Below the pieces are notes generated by a model, which saw only the letters and a list, made by a program, of their open reading frames with translations, was not told where the DNA came from and made no database searches. From the NCBI RefSeq assembly GCF_013085465.1, contig NZ_CP049838.1, forward strand, positions 3,658,001 to 3,722,000: 64,000 nt of DNA, given 5' to 3'. Shown here piece after piece: positions 13,286 to 38,591 of this stretch. How positions within the stretch are numbered: the first letter of the stretch is position 1; the number at the start of each line of letters is the position of its first letter. Origin of the DNA: Streptomyces asoensis (GTDB lineage: Bacteria > Actinomycetota > Actinomycetes > Streptomycetales > Streptomycetaceae). The translations under genes and the position numbers were made by a program.

Positions 13286-13966
13286 TCAAACGAGCGAGTT
13301 GTTGTTCAGCTTGCGGGTGGAGATGATCTGGTCGATCAGTCCGTACGCCAGCGCGTCCTCGGCCGTAAGGATCTTGTCGCGCTCGATGTCCTCGCGGATC
13401 TTCTCGATCGGCGTGGTCGAGTGCTTGGCCAGCATGTCCTCCAGCTGCGCGCGCATCCGGAGGATCTCGTTGGCGGCGATCTCCAGGTCGGAGACCTGAC
13501 CGCGGCCGGTCTCGCTGTACGGCTGGTGGATCAGCACGCGCGCGTTCGGCAGCGCCATGCGCTTGCCCGGCGTACCGGCGGCCAGCAGGATCGCGGCGGC
13601 GGAGGCCGCCTGACCCATGCAGACCGTCTGAATGTCGGGCTTCACGAACTGCATCGTGTCGTAGATCGCGGTCAGCGCCGTGAAGGAGCCGCCGGGGCTG
13701 TTGATGTAGACCGAGATGTCCCGGTCGGGGTCCATCGACTCCAGGCACAGCAGCTGCGCCATGACGTCGTTGGCGGAGGCGTCGTCGATCTGCACGCCGA
13801 GGAAGATCACGCGCTCCTCGAAGAGCTTCGCGTACGGGTCGTACTCGCGAACGCCCTGGGAGGTGCGCTCGACGAAGCGCGGGATGACGTAACGGGATTC
13901 GGCGCGAGGGCCGGTGTACTCGGCCTCGGTGCGGGCGTAGATGCCGCTGCCGGGGAAGTCGTTCAC
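13286..13966 (-). CDS. clpP2: ATP-dependent Clp protease proteolytic subunit ClpP2
   Basis: Serine protease subunit of 226 residues. The catalytic serine is in [19 protein letters not shown] and the histidine in [11 protein letters not shown]. The family's YINSPGGS loop lies at about residues 82-89. An N-terminal extension of about 40 residues ([18 protein letters not shown]) matches Streptomyces ClpP2. It assembles with ClpP1 into the protease core, loaded by ClpX or ClpC. Start: GTG at 13966 with AGGAG seven bases upstream. Its spacing from clpP1 (390 bp of repetitive sequence) is unusual for a pair normally made as one tight operon. Confidence 0.97.
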
Positions 13967-29390: not shown

Positions 29391-29404
29391 GTGACCCTGG
29401 TCAC
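29391..29404. promoter_or_regulatory. Palindrome in the bioY-ROK intergenic region
   Basis: GTGACCCTGGTCAC has perfect 6-bp arms around CT. It lies midway in the 290-bp spacer between bioY and the leader peptide. It could be an operator for either side. The rest of 29248-29498 holds no gene that I can support. Confidence 0.3.
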
Positions 29405-29498
29405 TGAGGTGGAGTGGTTCGGGATACGCAGGCGCCCCGGGCGGTCTCTGTAGGGTTTCGCCAACCGAACAGCGGCCGTCTCGCCCGTCGGTCGGCAT

Positions 29499-29528
29499 CT
29501 GGTCGGGGCCTGCCCCCTTTGCTAGCTT
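29499..29528 (+). promoter_or_regulatory. Probable promoter of the 30-residue leader ORF
   Basis: A -10-like TAGCTT (29523-29528) ends six bases before the leader ATG, with a weak CTGGTC -35-like sequence (29499-29504) 18 bp upstream. The message would start at the ATG itself. Confidence 0.4.
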
Positions 29529-29534
29529 CGAGCC

Positions 29535-29627
29535 ATGGTTGCCCAGGCCCAGTCTCTGAACTTCTCGTCGCGTCGCCATGTCGACCTGCGACGCGTGGGC
29601 GCGGCCGCCTGTCGCCCTCCGGTGTGA
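29535..29627 (+). CDS. Leader peptide of the HVDLRRV...CRP type (30 residues)
   Basis: A 31-codon ORF ending in RRHVDLRRVGAAACRPPV and then TGA. I recognise the RRHVDLRRV-x(3-5)-CRP ending from small proteins annotated only as putative leader peptides in Streptomyces, many near sulfur or cysteine genes. The ORF is probably leaderless. It precedes the ROK regulator by 85 bp. In this spacer GGAGCCG (29635-29641) can pair with CGGCTCC (29685-29691), just before the ROK ribosome binding site. A single Cys codon lies five codons from the stop. Its role in attenuation is inferred. Confidence 0.65.
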   Translation: MVAQAQSLNFSSRRHVDLRRVGAAACRPPV

Positions 29628-29712
29628 GGCGGGCGGAGCCGATCATCCGGCGCGCCGCGCTCCACAGACGGCGCAGTGTCGGACCGGCTCCCGACTTCCG
29701 AGGAAGTTCCCC

Positions 29713-30942
29713 ATGCCCCGTACCGCGGCTCCTCCCGCCCCGACCTCTCCCGTTACCCGGGTCGCCGACAGCGACCGGCGGCGTACCAGCGCCAGTGTGG
29801 TCCTGCGGTCCGTGCTGGAGCACGGGCCGGTCGCGCGCTCCACCATCGCCCGGCTCACCGGGCTGTCCCCCGCTTCCGTCACCGACCACTGTGCCCGGCT
29901 CACCGGGCTCGGGCTGCTCCGGGAGGCGGCGGTGCCCCGGCGCAGCAACGGGGTGGGCCGGCCGCACGTTCCGGTGGATCTGGACGACTCGCGGTTCGTG
30001 GTGGGCGGGGTGCATGTGGCGGTGCCGTACACCACGGTCTCGCTGCTGGATCTGCGCGGCCGGGTGGTCGCACGGCGGGAGTTGAAGCATCGAGGCCGCC
30101 TCGAACCGTCCGAGGTGCTGGCGCGGGCCTCCGACGGGCTCGGCGCGCTGCTCGAGGAGGCTCCCGGCTGCCGGGCCCTCGGGGTGGGGGTCGCCGTGGG
30201 CGGCTGGGTGGACCGGGATTCGGGGACCGTCGTCGAGCATCCGCTGCTGGGCTGGCGGGACGTGCCGGTGCGGGAGTCGGTCGGCGCGCACACCGGGCTG
30301 CCGGTCCAGGTGGACGGACACGCACGCGCGTTGGTCAACGCGGAGCGGCTGTTCGGGCAGGCACGCGGCAACCTGAGCGTGCTGCATCTGTTCGTCGGGA
30401 ACGTGGTCGACGCGGCGTTCGCCACGAACGACGAGGTGCACCACGGGCCGCGTTCACAGGCGGGCGCCATCGCGCATCTGCCGTTGGCCGGCGGCACGGA
30501 GCCCTGCGAGTGCGGCCGGGTCGGCTGCCTCCAAGTGGAGCTGAGCGAGCGGACGTTGTGCCGACGGGCCCGGCAGGCCGGGGTGATCGACGGGGTGAAC
30601 CCGATGCACGTGGTCGCCGCGGCGGAGGCCGGGAACCCGGTGGCCGTACGGCTGTTGCGGGAGCGGGCGCGGATGGTGGGCCGGGCTGCCGGGCTGCTGC
30701 TGGACGTGCTCAATCCGGAGCGGGTCGTCGTCACCGAGGTGGGTGTGCTGTTCCGGGAGGACTGCCTCGCCGCGCTGCGGGACGAGGTCGGCGCGGGGCG
30801 CTCCGCCGGCGTCTCGCCGAGCAGTTTCCCCGACTCCGTGCTGGCCGTGGCGGGCGGGGCGGTGGCACTGGACGTGCTCTACCGGGATCCGCTTGCCTCC
30901 TCCTGGCCTCGTCCTCCGGGCGTCCCACCTGAGCCGAGTTAA
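29713..30942 (+). CDS. ROK-family transcriptional regulator
   Basis: A 409-residue repressor-type ROK protein. The N-terminal winged helix (residues 18-75, VLEHGPVARSTIARLTGLSPASVTDHCARL) is followed by an actin-like sugar-kinase fold. The ROK zinc motif is visible as CECGRVGCLQVELS (about residues 272-285), and the DG-type sugar-binding loop as VQVDGHARAL. The usual catalytic Asp of ROK kinases is not evident, so it is a regulator, with ligand unknown. GAGGAAG lies nine bases before the ATG. It is co-directional with the sulfonate operon 285 bp downstream, and a functional link is possible but unproven. Confidence 0.9.
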   Translation: MPRTAAPPAPTSPVTRVADSDRRRTSASVVLRSVLEHGPVARSTIARLTGLSPASVTDHCARLTGLGLLREAAVPRRSNGVGRPHVPVDLDDSRFVVGGVHVAVPYTTVSLLDLRGRVVARRELKHRGRLEPSEVLARASDGLGALLEEAPGCRALGVGVAVGGWVDRDSGTVVEHPLLGWRDVPVRESVGAHTGLPVQVDGHARALVNAERLFGQARGNLSVLHLFVGNVVDAAFATNDEVHHGPRSQAGAIAHLPLAGGTEPCECGRVGCLQVELSERTLCRRARQAGVIDGVNPMHVVAAAEAGNPVAVRLLRERARMVGRAAGLLLDVLNPERVVVTEVGVLFREDCLAALRDEVGAGRSAGVSPSSFPDSVLAVAGGAVALDVLYRDPLASSWPRPPGVPPEPS

Positions 30943-30959
30943 TTCAGAAACTCCGAATG

Positions 30960-30989
30960 TTGACAGGCCCCACACGTGGACAGGAACAT
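30960..30989 (+). promoter_or_regulatory. Probable promoter of the sulfonate operon leader
   Basis: A perfect -35 box TTGACA (30960-30965) is followed after 18 bp by GAACAT (30984-30989) as a -10 box. Transcription would begin about seven bases later, at the ATG of the MSCRTFCC mini-ORF (30997), giving a leaderless leader peptide. Confidence 0.55.
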
Positions 30990-30996
30990 CTTTCTC

Positions 30997-31023
30997 ATGA
31001 GCTGTCGCACCTTCTGTTGCTGA
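30997..31023 (+). CDS. Cysteine-rich leader peptide MSCRTFCC
   Basis: An ORF of eight codons plus TGA encoding MSCRTFCC. Three of eight codons are Cys (TGT, TGT, TGC), with a pair right before the stop. It sits seven bases after a -10-like box and seven bases before a strong hairpin. It is the first thing transcribed ahead of the sulfonate genes. Cys-codon leader ORFs act as cysteine-responsive attenuators in mycobacteria (established for polycysteine uORFs there). The same role here is inferred from position and composition. Coding by chance alone cannot be excluded for so short an ORF. Confidence 0.6.
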   Translation: MSCRTFCC

Positions 31024-31029
31024 CGCCCC

Positions 31030-31048
31030 GGTGCGCCGGGAGCGCACC
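31030..31048 (+). terminator. Putative attenuator hairpin in the sulfonate leader
   Basis: GGTGCGC (31030-31036) and GCGCACC (31042-31048) form a perfect 7-pair stem around CGGGA, followed by CTTCTCCTGCCTTTAG. CGCACC inside the mini-ORF (31006-31011) can pair instead with GGTGCG (31030-31035), so two exclusive structures exist. A ribosome held at the Cys codons would reach the 5' arm. Confidence 0.5.
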
Positions 31049-31092
31049 CTTCTCCTGCCTTTAGTCGCAGGATTCGTTTCGGTCTTGTTGCA

Positions 31093-31146
31093 GATTCCTT
31101 GCGGATCTCCTGCGGATTTCTTGTGGATTCCTCTCGATTCCCGCAG
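31093..31146. repeat. 11-bp phased GATTCCTTGCG repeats in the sulfonate leader
   Basis: Five consecutive imperfect copies are GATTCCTTGCG, GATCTCCTGCG, GATTTCTTGTG, GATTCCTCTC and GATTCCCGCAG. They begin 45 bp after the attenuator hairpin. The leader from there to the GTG at 31228 stays pyrimidine-rich. No coding role is seen. Confidence 0.7.
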
Positions 31147-31227
31147 GCCCTTGCGGCCTCTGCCACGCCCGCTTTCCTCTGCCGGCTTCCGCCTGCCTTG
31201 TCTCCGTTTTCCCCTGGGGGTTCTCCC

Positions 31228-32295
31228 GTGCCTGTTTCCCGTACGCCCGGTGTCGACCGGCGTCTCTTCCTCGCCTCGCTGCTGGGCGCCGCCGCCGGTG
31301 TCGCAGGGCTCAGCGGCTGCGCCGAGAGCAGTGCCGCCACCGGTGGCGAGGGCGCCTCCACGGCCCCGCTCGCCGACAAGGTGCCCGCCGGCACGAGCCT
31401 GAAGATCGCCTCCTTCCAGGGCGCGCAGCAGTTGCAGCTGAAGCTGGCGAAGCTGCCCGAACTGCCCTTCGCGGTGTCGAGCTGGCTGAACATCGGGGCC
31501 GGTCCCGACGTCATCAACGCCTTCCGCGCGAAGTCCCTGGACGTCGCCAACAACGCGGGAATTCCGCCGATCCAGGCGCATTACCAGGGCTTCGACGCGA
31601 AAATCGTCGCGATCAACATCACCCGCAAGCCGAACTACGTCTTCGCCACCAAGCCGGGCAGCGACATCAAGACCGTCGACGACTTCCGCGGAAAGAAGCT
31701 GGCGTTCTCGCAGGGGCAGGCGCAGGGCGTCGTCCTGCTGCGGGCGCTGAAGAAGGCCGGCCTGAAGTACGACGACGTGAAGCTGGTCCCGCTGACCAGC
31801 AACCAGTTCCTCACCGCGCTTCAGTCGGGCCAGGTGGACATCGCCCCGCTCGGCAACACCCAGTCGCCCGCCTACCTCAAGCAGTACGAGTCCAAGGGCG
31901 CCCGCATCATCACCACCGACGTCGTCGACCTGCTCAGCCTGCTGTGGGCGCCGGTGTCCGTGCTGAACGACAAGGCGAAGGCCGCCGCCGTCGCCGCGTA
32001 CATCCCGCAGTGGGCGCAGGGCCTGGTGTGGAGCTACGAGAACCCGGACGTCTGGAACGAGGAGTTCTACGTCAAGACGCAGAACCTGACCCTCGACCAG
32101 GCCCAGTCGATCACCGCGCTCGCCAACAAGCCGCTGTTCCCGCCGAGTTGGGACGAGGCCATCAAGTGGGAGCAGGAGACCGCGGACCTCCTCGCGGAGG
32201 GCGGCTTCGTGAAGAAGTTCGACGTCTCCTCGCTGTTCGACCACCGCTTCGAGGGCATCGCCGCCAAGTCCGTGGCAGCCGAGTACCGGAGTTGA
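31228..32295 (+). CDS. ssuA: Sulfonate/aliphatic sulfur ABC transporter, substrate-binding lipoprotein
   Basis: A 355-residue exported lipoprotein. RRLFLASLLGAAAGVAGLSGC combines a Tat-like twin Arg with a lipobox (LSGC, Cys at about residue 33). The mature part is an NMT1/SsuA-type periplasmic-binding fold (SLKIASFQGAQQLQLKL, LDVANNAGIPPIQAHYQG, FRGKKLAFSQGQAQG). Start: GTG 31228 (VPVSRTPGVDRR), with GGGGG upstream. The first 43 codons of the longer open frame are repeat-derived. It is first in a five-gene operon with permease, ATPase, monooxygenase and dioxygenase, which points to organosulfur uptake. Symbol by family. Confidence 0.85.
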   Translation: MPVSRTPGVDRRLFLASLLGAAAGVAGLSGCAESSAATGGEGASTAPLADKVPAGTSLKIASFQGAQQLQLKLAKLPELPFAVSSWLNIGAGPDVINAFRAKSLDVANNAGIPPIQAHYQGFDAKIVAINITRKPNYVFATKPGSDIKTVDDFRGKKLAFSQGQAQGVVLLRALKKAGLKYDDVKLVPLTSNQFLTALQSGQVDIAPLGNTQSPAYLKQYESKGARIITTDVVDLLSLLWAPVSVLNDKAKAAAVAAYIPQWAQGLVWSYENPDVWNEEFYVKTQNLTLDQAQSITALANKPLFPPSWDEAIKWEQETADLLAEGGFVKKFDVSSLFDHRFEGIAAKSVAAEYRS

Positions 32296-32300
32296 CCGCC

Positions 32301-33191
32301 ATGACCACCAGCGCAAGCACGAGCACGAGCACGACCACCGGCACGACCGCGACCACGGTCCCCGCCGTCGCCGTCACCGCCGACGACGGTCCTCGGGTCC
32401 GCCGCCGACAACGACGCCGTGGACTCGCTCCCGGCAAACCGTGGCCCGCCTCCCGGCTCGTCGGGCCCCTGCTGCTCATCGCCTTGTGGGCCGCCGCCTC
32501 GGCCGCCGGGCAGCTGGACACCGGGGCGATCCCCGCGCCCTGGACGGTGCTCAGGACCGGCGTGAACCTGTGGACCGACGGGACACTCACCACCGACGTC
32601 CTCACCTCGCTGGAGCGCGCCGCCTACGGCTTCGCGATCGGCCTGACCGCCGGGGTGACGCTCGCGCTGGCCTCGGGGCTGACCCGGTCCGGGGAGGCCC
32701 TGATCGACGGGACCGTGCAGCTCAACCGGGCGATCCCGACCCTCGGTCTGATCCCGCTGTTCATCCTCTGGCTGGGCATCGGCGAGACCTTCAAGATCGC
32801 GATCATCGCCATCGTCGTCTACATCCCGATCTACCTCAACACGCATGCCGCGCTGTCCGGCATCGACCACCGGTTCGTCGAACTCGCCGAGGTGCAGGGC
32901 CTGTCGAAGGTCGAGTTCATCCGGCAGATCGTGATCCCCGGCGCCCTGCCCGGATTCTTCGTGGGACTCCGGCTCGGGGTGACCGGCTCCTGGCTGGGAC
33001 TGGTGGTCCTGGAGCAGATCAACGCCACCAGCGGCCTCGGTTACATGATGTTCCAGGCCCAGAACTACGGCCAGTCGGACGTCATCCTCGTCGGCCTCCT
33101 CATCTACGGCGTCTTCGGTCTCCTTTCCGACACCGCGGTCCGTCTCATCGAACGGAGGGTGCTGTCGTGGCGCCGCACACTGAGCAGCTGA
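32301..33191 (+). CDS. ssuC: Sulfonate ABC transporter permease
   Basis: A 296-residue inner-membrane permease of the SsuC/TauC type with six predicted helices and the BPD-transport EAA loop VELAEVQGLSKVEFIRQIVIPGALPG (split here only by context: VELAEVQGLSK, then VIPGALPGFF). An unusual Ser/Thr-rich, then Arg-rich, N-terminal extension of about 48 residues (TSASTSTSTTTGTTATT, RRRQRRRGLAPGK) precedes the first helix. The ATG lies 5 bp after the ssuA stop. It overlaps the ATPase gene by 25 bp. The permease passes the substrate delivered by the upstream lipoprotein. Confidence 0.88.
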   Translation: MTTSASTSTSTTTGTTATTVPAVAVTADDGPRVRRRQRRRGLAPGKPWPASRLVGPLLLIALWAAASAAGQLDTGAIPAPWTVLRTGVNLWTDGTLTTDVLTSLERAAYGFAIGLTAGVTLALASGLTRSGEALIDGTVQLNRAIPTLGLIPLFILWLGIGETFKIAIIAIVVYIPIYLNTHAALSGIDHRFVELAEVQGLSKVEFIRQIVIPGALPGFFVGLRLGVTGSWLGLVVLEQINATSGLGYMMFQAQNYGQSDVILVGLLIYGVFGLLSDTAVRLIERRVLSWRRTLSS

Positions 33192-33904
33192 CCCGCTCCG
33201 CCGCAGTCCAACTGCGCGGCCTGACAAGGTCGTTCGAGGAACGCACGGTTCTCGACGGCATCGACCTGGACATCCCCGCCGGCCAATTCGTGGCACTCCT
33301 CGGGCACAGCGGGTCCGGCAAGAGCACCCTGCTGCGGGCGGTCGCCCACCTCGACCACGAGGTCGTCGGCAGCGGGCAGCTCACGGCCCCGGAGAGGGTG
33401 TCGGTGGTCTTCCAGGACTCCCGGCTGCTGCCCTGGCGGCGGGTGCTGGACAACGTGCTGCTGGGTCTTGACGGCAAGGAGGCGGAGCAGAAGGGCCGCG
33501 AGGCCCTCGCCGAGGTGGGGCTGAAGGGCCGCGAGCGGGCCTGGCCCAATGAGCTGTCCGGCGGTGAGGCGCAGCGCGCCGCACTGGCCCGATCGCTGGT
33601 CCGCGAACCCGAACTCCTCCTCGCCGACGAGCCGTTCGGGGCGCTGGACGCCCTCACCCGGATCAAGATGCACACCCTGCTGCGCGAGCTGTGGGAGCGC
33701 CACAAGCCTTCCGTACTGCTCGTCACCCACGACGTGGACGAGGCGATCGTGCTCGCCGACCGGGTCCTCGTCCTCGACCACGGCCGTATCGGCCTCGACC
33801 TGACCATCGACCGCCCGCACCCGCGCTCGTACCGGGACCCGCTGCTCGGCGAGTACCGCGAACGGCTGCTCGCCGCCCTGGGCGTCACGGAGGACCACAA
33901 GTGA
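33167..33904 (+). CDS. ssuB: Sulfonate ABC transporter ATP-binding protein
   Basis: A 245-residue ABC ATPase. Walker A is GHSGSGKST (about residues 46-54), the Q-loop is FQDSRLLPWRRVLDNV, the signature LSGGEAQRAALARSL, Walker B LLLADEPFGALDALTR and the H-loop TH in LLVTHDVDEA. The LLPWRRVLDNV segment is characteristic of the SsuB/TauB group. Start: GTG 33167 (VAPHTEQLTR), with GGAGG 11 bases upstream. It overlaps the end of the permease gene. It is coupled to the monooxygenase through GTGA. Confidence 0.9.
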   Translation: MAPHTEQLTRSAAVQLRGLTRSFEERTVLDGIDLDIPAGQFVALLGHSGSGKSTLLRAVAHLDHEVVGSGQLTAPERVSVVFQDSRLLPWRRVLDNVLLGLDGKEAEQKGREALAEVGLKGRERAWPNELSGGEAQRAALARSLVREPELLLADEPFGALDALTRIKMHTLLRELWERHKPSVLLVTHDVDEAIVLADRVLVLDHGRIGLDLTIDRPHPRSYRDPLLGEYRERLLAALGVTEDHK

Positions 33905-35259
33905 CCACGGCTCACAACGGACGACAGCTCCACCTGAACGCGTTCCTGATGAACACCGGCCACCACGAGGCGTCCTGGCGACTCCCGGAGAGCGACCCGT
34001 ACGCCCACGTGGAGCTGGACCACTACGTCCACCTGGCCCGGATCGCCGAACGCGGCACCTTCGACTCCCTGTTCCTCGCCGACGGTCCGCAGCTCTGGGG
34101 CACCATCGCCCAGCGCCCGGCCGGCGCCCTGGAGCCGCTCACGCTGCTCACCGCGCTGGCGACGGCCACCCGGCACATCGGCCTCATCGCCACCGCCTCC
34201 ACCTCCTACAACTCCCCCTACAACCTGGCCCGTAAGTTCGCCTCGCTCGACATCATCAGCGGCGGCCGGGCGGGCTGGAACATCGTCACCACCGCCGGCG
34301 CGGAGGCCGCCCGCAACTTCGGTCTGGACGCCGAGCCCGCGCACGCCGAGCGCTACGCCCGCGCCGGCGAGTTCCTCGACGTGGCCCTGAAGCTCTGGGA
34401 CAGCTGGGAGGACGACGCGATCGTCGCCGACAAGACGGCCGGCGTCTGGGGCGACGACGCGAAGGTCCACCCGCCCCGGCACCGGGGGACGTATTTCAGT
34501 GTCGAGGGCGCCCTCAACGTCCCGCGTTCACCCCAGGGTTACCCGCTGCTGGTGCAGGCCGGGTCGAGCGAGGACGGCAAGGCGTTCGCGGCCCGGTACG
34601 CGGAGGCGGTGTTCACCGCGCAGCAGACGCTCGGCGACGCGCAGGCCTTCTACGCCGACCTCAAGTCCCGTACCCGGCAGGCCGGCCGGGATCCCGAGCA
34701 CATCAAGGTGCTGCCCGGGATCGTCCCGGTGATCGGCTCGACGGAGGCCGAGGCACGAGCCAACGAACAGGTCCTCGAGGACCACATCGTGCACACGCAC
34801 GGGGTCCAGCGGCTGGAGCAGCTGCTCCAGCTGGAGCCGGGCGCCCTGGAGCTGGACTCGGAGCTGCCCGCCGACCTGCCGCCGGAGAGCGCGATCGAAG
34901 GCGCCAAGAGCCGCTACACCCTCGTGGTGGAGCTGGCCCGGCGCGATCGCCTCACCGTGCGGCAGCTGATCGGGCGGCTCGGCGGCGGGCGCGGGCACCT
35001 CACCTTCGCGGGCACGCCCGAGCAGGTCGCCGACGCGATCGAGAGCTGGTTCACCCAGGGCGCCGCCGACGGGTTCAACATCATGCCCGCGGTGCTGCCC
35101 TCCGGCCTGGACGCCTTCGTGGACCACGTCGTGCCGATCCTGCGCGCCCGCGGCCTGCTGCGCACGGAGTACGGCCCGCGCACGACCCTGCGGGAGAGGT
35201 ACGGCCTTCCGCGCCCCGCCAACCAGTACGTGAACGCTCCCGCACCCGTCCTCGTCTGA
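33901..35259 (+). CDS. FMN-dependent monooxygenase, luciferase-like NtaA/SnaA/DszA family
   Basis: A 452-residue flavin monooxygenase of the class that oxidises sulfonates, sulfones or aminopolycarboxylates with FMNH2 from a separate reductase. Visible features are RLPESDPYAHVELDHYVHLA, the flavin-binding GLIATASTSYNSPYNLAR and the C-terminal TPEQVADAIESWFTQGAADG. The family covers NtaA, SnaA, DszA and DmoA. Presence in a sulfonate transporter operon makes an organosulfur substrate likely, but the exact one is unknown. Start: GTG 33901, overlapping the ATPase stop by 4 bp, with GGAGG ten bases before. No flavin reductase gene lies nearby. Confidence 0.88.
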   Translation: MTTAHNGRQLHLNAFLMNTGHHEASWRLPESDPYAHVELDHYVHLARIAERGTFDSLFLADGPQLWGTIAQRPAGALEPLTLLTALATATRHIGLIATASTSYNSPYNLARKFASLDIISGGRAGWNIVTTAGAEAARNFGLDAEPAHAERYARAGEFLDVALKLWDSWEDDAIVADKTAGVWGDDAKVHPPRHRGTYFSVEGALNVPRSPQGYPLLVQAGSSEDGKAFAARYAEAVFTAQQTLGDAQAFYADLKSRTRQAGRDPEHIKVLPGIVPVIGSTEAEARANEQVLEDHIVHTHGVQRLEQLLQLEPGALELDSELPADLPPESAIEGAKSRYTLVVELARRDRLTVRQLIGRLGGGRGHLTFAGTPEQVADAIESWFTQGAADGFNIMPAVLPSGLDAFVDHVVPILRARGLLRTEYGPRTTLRERYGLPRPANQYVNAPAPVLV

Positions 35260-35282: not shown

Positions 35283-36176
35283 ATGAGCATCGAGATCCGC
35301 AAGGTCACCGCGAACATCGGCGCCCAGGTCTCCGGCGTCGACATCGCGAAGCCCCTCGACGAGGAGACGTACACCGCCCTGCGCGAGGCGCTCAACGTCC
35401 ACAAGGCCCTGGTCTTCGACGACGTGGACCTGGACGACGCGGGCCAGCAGGCCTTCGTCCGCCACTTCGGCGACCTCACCACCGCCCACCCGACCGTGCC
35501 GGCCGTCGACGGCGCCCCGAACGTGCTGCCGGTCGACAGCGAGCGCGGCCGCGCCGCCAACCACTGGCACACGGACGTCACCTTCGTCCTCAACCCGCCG
35601 CAGGCCAGCACCCTGCGCAGCCTGGTCCTCCCGCCGTACGGCGGCGAGACCCTGATCACCAGCTCGGCGGCGGCCTACCGCCAGCTGCCGGAGCCGCTCA
35701 GGCAGCTCGCCGACACCCTGTGGGCCGAGCACACCAACGACTACGACTACGCGGTGCCGCAGGAGACGGTCGACGAGGCGCAGGCCGCCGCGCGCGCCCA
35801 GTTCACCTCGATCAAGTACCGCACGGTCCACCCGGTGGTCCGCGTGCACCCGCTGACCGGCGAGCGGGGCCTGTTCATCGGCGGGTTCGCCCAGCGCATC
35901 GTGGGCCTGTCGCCGGCCGAGTCCCGCAAGATCCTCGACCTGCTCCAGTCGTACGTCACCCGGCCGGAGAACATCGTGCGCCACCGCTGGTCGGAGAACC
36001 AGCTGGTCCTGTTCGACAACCGCATCACCCAGCACTACGCGGTCGACAACTACGACGGCCGGCCCCGCCGGCTGCACCGGGTGACCGTCGCGGGTGACAT
36101 CCCGGTCGGCATCGACGGCAAGGAGAGCTACTCGATCGAGGGCGACGCGGCGCACTACACCTCCGTAGCGGCCTAG
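35283..36176 (+). CDS. TauD/TfdA-family 2-oxoglutarate dioxygenase
   Basis: A 297-residue Fe(II)/2-oxoglutarate dioxygenase. The HxD pair lies in NHWHTDVTFVLNPPQAS (about residues 93-97). The distal His is in FDNRITQHYAVDNYDG, with the 2-oxoglutarate Arg in RRLHRVTVAGD. This is the taurine/alkylsulfatase branch of the family. It follows the monooxygenase by 23 bp with AAAGGAACC upstream, so it is fifth in the operon. It would release sulfite or sulfate from an alkylsulfonate or sulfate ester (inferred). A terminator follows. Confidence 0.9.
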   Translation: MSIEIRKVTANIGAQVSGVDIAKPLDEETYTALREALNVHKALVFDDVDLDDAGQQAFVRHFGDLTTAHPTVPAVDGAPNVLPVDSERGRAANHWHTDVTFVLNPPQASTLRSLVLPPYGGETLITSSAAAYRQLPEPLRQLADTLWAEHTNDYDYAVPQETVDEAQAAARAQFTSIKYRTVHPVVRVHPLTGERGLFIGGFAQRIVGLSPAESRKILDLLQSYVTRPENIVRHRWSENQLVLFDNRITQHYAVDNYDGRPRRLHRVTVAGDIPVGIDGKESYSIEGDAAHYTSVAA

Positions 36177-38486: not shown

Positions 38487-38552
38487 GGCAGCGGTGAAGC
38501 GTCCTGCCTCGTGATCGTCTTCTCACCCTTCACGGCGGCAGGCGGAGTGAAG

Positions 38553-38591
38553 GAGCGGCCCCGCGAGGACATGACTCGCGGGGCCGCTCCC
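38553..38591 (+). terminator. sodF terminator
   Basis: GGAGCGGCCCCGCGA and TCGCGGGGCCGCTCC form a perfect 15-pair stem with a nine-base loop, about 65 bp after the stop. Confidence 0.9.

Follow-up and report, generated by a model that had tools for sequence, protein, structure and literature searches.

Does a very short open reading frame (ORF) crowded with cysteine codons, situated just ahead of a sulfonate operon in Streptomyces asoensis, report on the supply of cysteine, and by which route would such a signal reach the operon? Direct reading of the window (the whole stretch of 64,000 nucleotides analyzed here, part of a 10.04-Mb one-contig genome) confirmed the layout described in a first-pass annotation, namely a TTGACA box, a -10-like box, an ORF encoding MSCRTFCC, two hairpin arms and a CGCACC motif inside the ORF (31006-31011). 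The mini-ORF comprises eight codons, from an ATG at 30997 to a TGA at 31021-31023, and six bases separate its stop from the hairpin.

30960..30965, + strand: -35 box TTGACA, part of the anchor pattern used below
30984..30989, + strand: -10-like box GAACAT, separated from the -35 box by 18 nt, its A2 and T6 unchanged across 88 distinct promoters
30997..31023, + strand: predicted leaderless mini-ORF MSCRTFCC-stop, proposed cysteine sensor, from sequence and conservation
31030..31048, + strand: GGTGCGC/GCGCACC hairpin after the stop, represented in relatives by a short GC stem of variable sequence; from sequence, with modest enrichment

When both strands of the 64-kb window were searched for ATG-initiated mini-ORFs of 6-15 codons ending in Cys-Cys-stop, this was the only one, against a mean of 0.10 in 40 first-order Markov simulations, so such an ORF is commoner here than chance would give; none of the 40 simulations produced a mini-ORF with three or more Cys codons. 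The argument that the mini-ORF is real is carried far better by its conservation across the genus than by this single sequence.

The genes that follow are those of a sulfonate-type operon:

31228..32295, + strand: ssuA-like substrate-binding protein gene with a GTG start (TIGR01728 SsuA_fam, 108 bits, below the cut-off of 163.5; PF09084)
32307..33191, + strand: ssuC-like permease gene (best NCBIfam model SsuC, below cut-off)
33188..33904, + strand: ssuB-like ATPase gene (best NCBIfam model aliphatic sulfonate ATPase, below cut-off)
33901..35259, + strand: NtaA/DmoA-family FMN-dependent monooxygenase gene (TIGR03860, 551 bits, cut-off 280)
35283..36176, + strand: TauD-like dioxygenase gene (PF02668, 217 bits; NCBIfam taurine dioxygenase, 228 bits, below 313)

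The top NCBIfam models of all three transporter proteins describe sulfonate transport, each below its curated cut-off, and an amino acid permease gene lies beyond the TauD-like dioxygenase. Farther along, an Rfam sodF sRNA match (91.9 bits) was observed at 38499-38590.

Conservation of the leader at orthologous sulfonate operons

Conservation was assessed with an anchor from which the ORF itself was excluded: a box ahead of the ORF, taking in the -35, whose conservation had emerged from a DNA search of 100 relatives. Allowing up to three mismatches, the anchor matched in 96 of 392 Streptomyces genomes, at 74 loci without any mismatch, and the reversed pattern gave zero matches in the same 392 genomes. 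An ATG followed the first TTGACA base at 36-37 nt in all 96 loci (37 nt in 93, 36 nt in three). The ORF ended in Cys-Cys-stop in 94 and Cys-Arg-stop in two, bearing out the conservation of Cys codons in close relatives that had been proposed as a check. At 95 of the 96 loci ssuA (71-100% identity) was found within the fetched stretch; the remaining one (G325) has no ssuA at the locus, and its leader precedes, by eye, a tauD-like gene.

A protein search of 384 genomes, independent of the anchor, recovered 98 ssuA orthologs (at least 72% identity) and 25 distant homologs (56-61%). The leader was present at 97 of the 98 orthologous operons, and a Cys leader by our criteria was absent from the ~800 nt scanned at all 25 distant homologs. 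The anchor box lay ahead of 94 of the 98 orthologs. Three of the four anchor-less orthologs keep a leader (MSCRTLCC, MSCRTLCR and MSPFTSCRTLCR); in the fourth (G013) the ORF is lost. Four leaders in the anchor and ortholog sets end in Cys-Arg-stop, and these were counted against the cysteine-leader reading.

In a second, named collection of at least 119 stretches, whose species overlap those of the first and of which 117 could be scored once two partial ones were left out, 115 leaders ended in Cys-Cys-stop, one in Cys-Arg-stop and one in Cys-His-stop among the matches listed. Carriers in this collection include S. viridochromogenes DSM 40736 and S. antibioticus DSM 40234. Ten stretches of this collection gave no ssuA match; nine have less than 450 nt of downstream flank, and the tenth (L290), with 7.3 kb of downstream sequence, is truly without ssuA. 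Among 293 genomes of the order, a pattern built on the ORF only matched once each in 79, every one a Streptomyces, although a few rows with one mismatch may be chance, and its reversed form gave zero matches in the 293 genomes. No short form was found in 20 genomes of eight other genera, and one record titled Actinacidiphila carries the long form; the ultrashort cysteine-codon leader has thus far been seen only in Streptomyces. The species counted are related and do not represent independent events. Short versions span 8-16 codons and long versions 27-54, the N-terminal part varying by whole codons with the frame, start and stop kept.

Promoter geometry and a predicted leaderless start

Among 88 distinct promoters, the boxes are separated by 18 nt and the -10 from the ATG by 7 nt, and A2 and T6 of the -10 never vary, nor does the C that precedes the ATG. 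Because the geometry of -35, -10 and ATG is fixed, the natural reading is a leaderless mRNA, with transcription predicted to begin right at the ATG. The -10 is weak, with GAACAT agreeing with TATAAT at three of six positions, and a consensus promoter scan reported no site at the MSCRTFCC leader. In S. lividans, 17% of transcripts are reported to be leaderless (PMC8079986).

Codon choice, stop context and a predicted hairpin inside the ORF

The penultimate codon is TGT in all 82 distinct short leaders, which also carry TGT as first Cys codon in 79 cases and CGC as Arg codon in all 82. At the same loci TGT occurs in 1 of 95 ssuA Cys codons, though these represent mostly one homologous codon, and the Cys codons of nine window genes are TGT in 3 of 15 cases. 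All 213 leaders (the two collections joined, with overlapping species and 105 distinct 36-mers) stop at TGA, and the next base is C in 206 of them, T in six and A in one. Such uniformity of the penultimate codon, the stop and the base behind it indicates that the leader RNA is constrained as well. UGAC is a slow stop context.

The fold conserved among relatives is predicted to be a small ORF-internal hairpin, one that takes in the stop codon, and not the pair of hairpins originally suggested:

31003..31025, + strand: ORF-internal hairpin UGUCGCA (31003-31009) / UGC-u-GACG (31018-31025), with the stop codon in the 3' strand (RNAalifold, 74 leaders)

Seven pairs of this hairpin can form in 65 of the 82 distinct short leaders, six in 16 and five in one. 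RNAalifold was run on 74 of the 96 loci (eight with long peptides, two in which the ssuA start was missed and 12 mostly with long spacers were excluded) and returned ten pairs, one of them with a double change; covariation cannot test this hairpin because the leader is nearly invariant. No Rfam family matched within 29400-31400 at E<=5. By eye, a unit containing TGTTGCTGA was seen duplicated in tandem, at the leader stop or immediately past it, in six loci (L046, L100, L101, L106, L110 and L122).

Relation to known cysteine leaders

Two families of cysteine leaders were used for comparison. Against NF042933 (Ms5788A, curated cut-off 45 bits) the short form was unmatched in its own genome at E<=10, and six long ssu leaders tested gave 11.9, 14.6, 20.4 and 20.9 bits with two unmatched, all below the cut-off; MSSSRVQVPLTKCRVVDLMRVARTLCC is an example of a weakly matching long version. 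Against NF042934 (cut-off 27 bits) the short form was likewise unmatched in its own genome at E<=10, and one of the six long leaders matched, at 15.4 bits. A profile comparison between eight long ssu leaders and ten NF042934-type leaders gave a probability of 75% (E 2.5e-5, 22 columns). By eye, we infer that the short form reads as the long form minus a central VVDLMRVAR, and the ssu leader is probably related to the NF042933/NF042934 family, though below its formal cut-offs.

NF042934 itself is well represented in the S. asoensis genome, with at least 12 matches over the cut-off when 150 of 357 candidates were scored. Ten genes following leaders from the two family searches were tested: seven were of sulfur type (two rhodaneses, three luciferase-like monooxygenases, one PLP enzyme and one sulfite/nitrite reductase), two encoded binding proteins and one was unmatched. 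As with the ssu leader, the own-genome members thus stand mostly before sulfur-type genes, and a borderline member precedes the ROK gene next to the ssu leader (see below). Separately, the own-genome loci L127-L146 show RRHVDL-type leaders, most before sulfur-type genes, with L133 and L134 before solute-binding proteins.

The first-pass annotation had likened the ORF to a compact Streptomyces version of the mycobacterial polycysteine upstream ORFs, and the resemblance holds in style: a small ORF closing on Cys codons is conserved upstream of sulfur genes. The Ms5788A family, as described in the consulted part of PMC4633059, shares a leaderless ORF with Cys codons at the end before sulfur genes, and four of the six long Streptomyces versions align with it over ~20 residues. 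The mycobacterial mechanism, in contrast, is reported as translational in the section of PMC13236596 that treats it, whereas the Streptomyces folds show no effect on the Shine-Dalgarno (SD) sequence. The cys leaders of Mycobacterium, Propionibacterium acnes and Bifidobacterium (Seliverstov 2005, PMC1262725) are, in the portions seen, similar in having Cys runs near the stop and no conserved terminator; they differ in that the same portions list cysteine leaders from these genera but from neither of the two Streptomyces genomes examined. The eight leader peptides of S. lividans TK24 include none called cysteine-dependent in the accessible part of PMC8079986. The S. lividans metL leader, linked to methionine uptake, ends in CMCRRMCAF with three Cys codons near the end (same part of PMC8079986), and may sense cysteine. 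Within the portions of the literature searched, no description was found of a short cysteine-codon leader in Streptomyces.

A ROK regulator, its candidate operator and a second leader

Upstream of the promoter lie three further features:

29535..29627, + strand: second leader ORF MVAQAQSLNFSSRRHVDLRRVGAAACRPPV (followed by a stop) ahead of the ROK gene, from sequence; NF042934 borderline
29713..30942, + strand: ROK-family regulator gene (weak MarR-like HTH plus ROK; PF00480, 115 bits), candidate operator-binding protein
30942..30958, no strand: palindromic operator candidate ATTCAGAAACTCCGAAT (ATTCNGANNNTCNGAAT), single perfect match genome-wide

The palindrome ATTCNGANNNTCNGAAT adjoins the -35, and the genome holds one perfect and four one-mismatch matches, one of the latter inside the window at 13617-13633. 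The strict palindrome was present in 85 of the 96 anchor loci, but the anchor had been defined on it. Every one of the 96 anchor loci is preceded by the ROK gene, which is missing from the 4 kb fetched at each of the four anchor-less orthologous operons; in all four the palindrome is also gone (best match with 4-5 substitutions); these are few events, and three of them are probably one loss. In the named collection the ROK gene was found in 116 of the 119 stretches listed, the remaining three having less than 125 nt of upstream flank. Co-occurrence suggests that the ROK gene and the palindromic operator are coupled to the ssu promoter. SsuR and CysR of Corynebacterium glutamicum are comparable ROK proteins that regulate sulfonate and sulfate genes there, and the inverted repeats lie just upstream of the -35 (3 bp upstream for CysR), according to the consulted part of PMC2580772. 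The operator sequences are just loosely alike by eye, and the likeness of the proteins lies at the level of the ROK family.

A TAGCTT at 29523-29528 places the predicted start of the MVAQAQSLNFSSRRHVDLRRVGAAACRPPV transcript at its ATG. This ORF sits on the edge of the NF042934 (cis_reg_atten) cut-off of 27, with 27.1 bits by hmmscan and 26.0, below the cut-off, in the genome search. A strict regular expression found the ROK leader at 30 of 96 loci, which is an undercount, as the fetched flank often ends there and the expression missed one leader (L183) that was found later. In all eight genomes whose ssu leaders are long, a weaker NF042934 match, below the cut-off, occupies the position of the ROK leader, and in three of the four anchor-less operons (G265, G013 and G149) a ROK-type leader lies directly upstream of the ssu leader region. 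Because a second leader precedes the ROK gene, the regulator and the operon may both be attenuated.

Is the leader a sensor, and how would it act?

Taken together, the sequence evidence makes it highly probable that the ssu/tau operon is attenuated through a leader peptide that senses cysteine; the ORF is likely a cysteine leader, with the response to cysteine itself inferred. Eight codons are few, and high-GC DNA has many unrelated open frames, which is what a chance ORF before an ordinarily regulated operon would look like; conservation in the anchor, ortholog, named and ORF-only searches refutes that explanation, to which we give practically no weight. A conserved stretch of protein-bound DNA or RNA that merely happens to read as an ORF, with no sensor at all, would account for the strong nucleotide conservation that extends to synonymous sites and to the base after the stop. 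It would not explain why the reading frame, its start and its stop persist as the peptide ranges from 8 to 54 codons, why four of six long versions weakly match Cys leader families at the protein level, or why the ORF is kept in three of four orthologous operons that have neither the ROK gene nor its operator, and it is accordingly rated very unlikely.

If the leader is a sensor, the question becomes what its ribosome controls. Classical attenuation through an antiterminator and a terminator hairpin, the mechanism first proposed for this locus, draws on the CGCACC of the window ORF, which can pair with GGTGCG, and on the GC hairpin after the stop, whose arms (31030-31036 and 31042-31048) form a perfect 7-bp stem in the window strain. 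This stem stood up in S. asoensis, and post-stop stems are on average about 1 bp longer than in shuffles (longest Watson-Crick stem 4.86 against 3.71 bp in the 88 of 96 loci compared), a modest enrichment, as the observed stem was reached by a median of 25% of shuffles in those 88 loci. Its expected stability as a class did not: the folding energy after the stop equals that of shuffles (median z 0.14 over 96 loci; -2.1 in the window strain), so an unusually stable post-stop hairpin was rejected, and the minimum-energy fold of the window strain uses a competing stem, CGCCCCGG/CCGGGaGCG. The mutually exclusive hairpins were not borne out either. CGCACC occurs in 68 of 88 ORFs, but just 3 of the 88 loci have its partner GGTGCG at +5..+45 relative to the stop. 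Complementarity between the ORF and the downstream sequence is not longer than in shuffles (4.19 against 4.37 bp, 88 loci). No U-tract intrinsic terminator was found at the leader hairpin, and the two terminator-like matches, at 31053 and 31099, do not exceed what chance would give (2 against 1.2 expected). With neither conserved exclusive hairpins nor a U-tract terminator, the leader was not assigned to the classical terminator/antiterminator class, and this mechanism is improbable. Somewhat less improbable, yet still unlikely, is translational attenuation, in which the leader would pair with the ssuA SD until a stalled ribosome frees it: such control has been described for cysteine genes of M. 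smegmatis (summarized in the part of PMC13236596 seen), and the ssuA SD is mostly paired in folds. Its mean unpaired probability, however, was 0.163 in free folds, 0.160 with the ORF and stall footprint open and 0.155 with the 5' part shuffled; opening the ORF raised it by more than 0.1 in four and lowered it in five of the 86 leaders. SD sequestration was rejected as opening the ORF had no effect in these thermodynamic folds, a model from which co-transcriptional folding could differ.

Attention therefore turns to the spacer between the leader and ssuA:

31024..31227, + strand: C-rich, G-poor spacer (77 C, 52 G) from the leader stop to ssuA, candidate Rho loading region by composition

Rho loading takes ~80 nt or more of C-rich, G-poor RNA. 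The spacers of 94 loci average 39.3% C and 23.9% G over lengths of 86-403 nt, so that all are long enough, and their mean composition is suitable, for a Rho-dependent attenuator. In the 86 of 96 loci (short leaders) used for the skew and SD analyses, spacer skew was negative throughout (mean -0.249 against -0.011 in control windows) and at or below -0.2 in 77, compared with 7% of 1541 control windows; the skew of the window strain's own spacer was reached by 5% of window stretches. As to lack of structure, folding after the stop equals that of shuffles. A stalled ribosome shields about a dozen nt after the stop, which would leave most of the C-rich spacer free and counts against the Rho step. 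By eye, repeated TGCGGATTTC-like units were seen at 31080-31145 in the window strain's spacer. Given a real leader, Rho-dependent attenuation is the effector we prefer, at a confidence just short of even, because of this composition and an earlier suggestion of Rho for cys leaders in the consulted part of PMC1262725, whose authors call the prediction rather weak.

In a Rho-dependent scheme, transcription would begin at or next to the ATG, as the promoter geometry suggests, and ribosomes would initiate on the leaderless AUG and translate the conserved ORF. When Cys-tRNA is plentiful, both terminal Cys codons would be read, termination would take place at UGA-C and the ribosome would leave, exposing the naked C-rich spacer to Rho, so that transcription would stop before ssuA. 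When Cys-tRNA is short, the ribosome would stall on UGU-UGC, keep the hairpin of ORF and stop open and cover the first downstream bases, and RNA polymerase might then escape into ssuA. The neighboring ROK protein would bind the palindrome by the -35 and act either in the manner of the activator SsuR or by repression, adding promoter control to the cysteine control of the leader. Put more speculatively, the locus could represent a new architecture, a reading we offer tentatively and hold to be doubtful as a whole: an ultra-short leaderless ORF whose last Cys and stop codons form the 3' strand of a hairpin, preceded by an always wobble-read UGU and ending in a nearly invariant, slow-terminating UGA-C, in which cysteine supply would set how long the ribosome lingers on the last codons, a signal relayed to Rho, beneath a ROK regulator with a leader of the same kind.

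Implications

Cysteine attenuation has been reported from mycobacteria, and Streptomyces adds a compact form linked with a single organosulfur operon; the constraints on its leader at the nucleotide level point to the mechanism. The choice between Rho, hairpin and SD as effector becomes directly testable with small reporters. More widely, the findings suggest that sulfur genes in Streptomyces are broadly governed by leader peptides.
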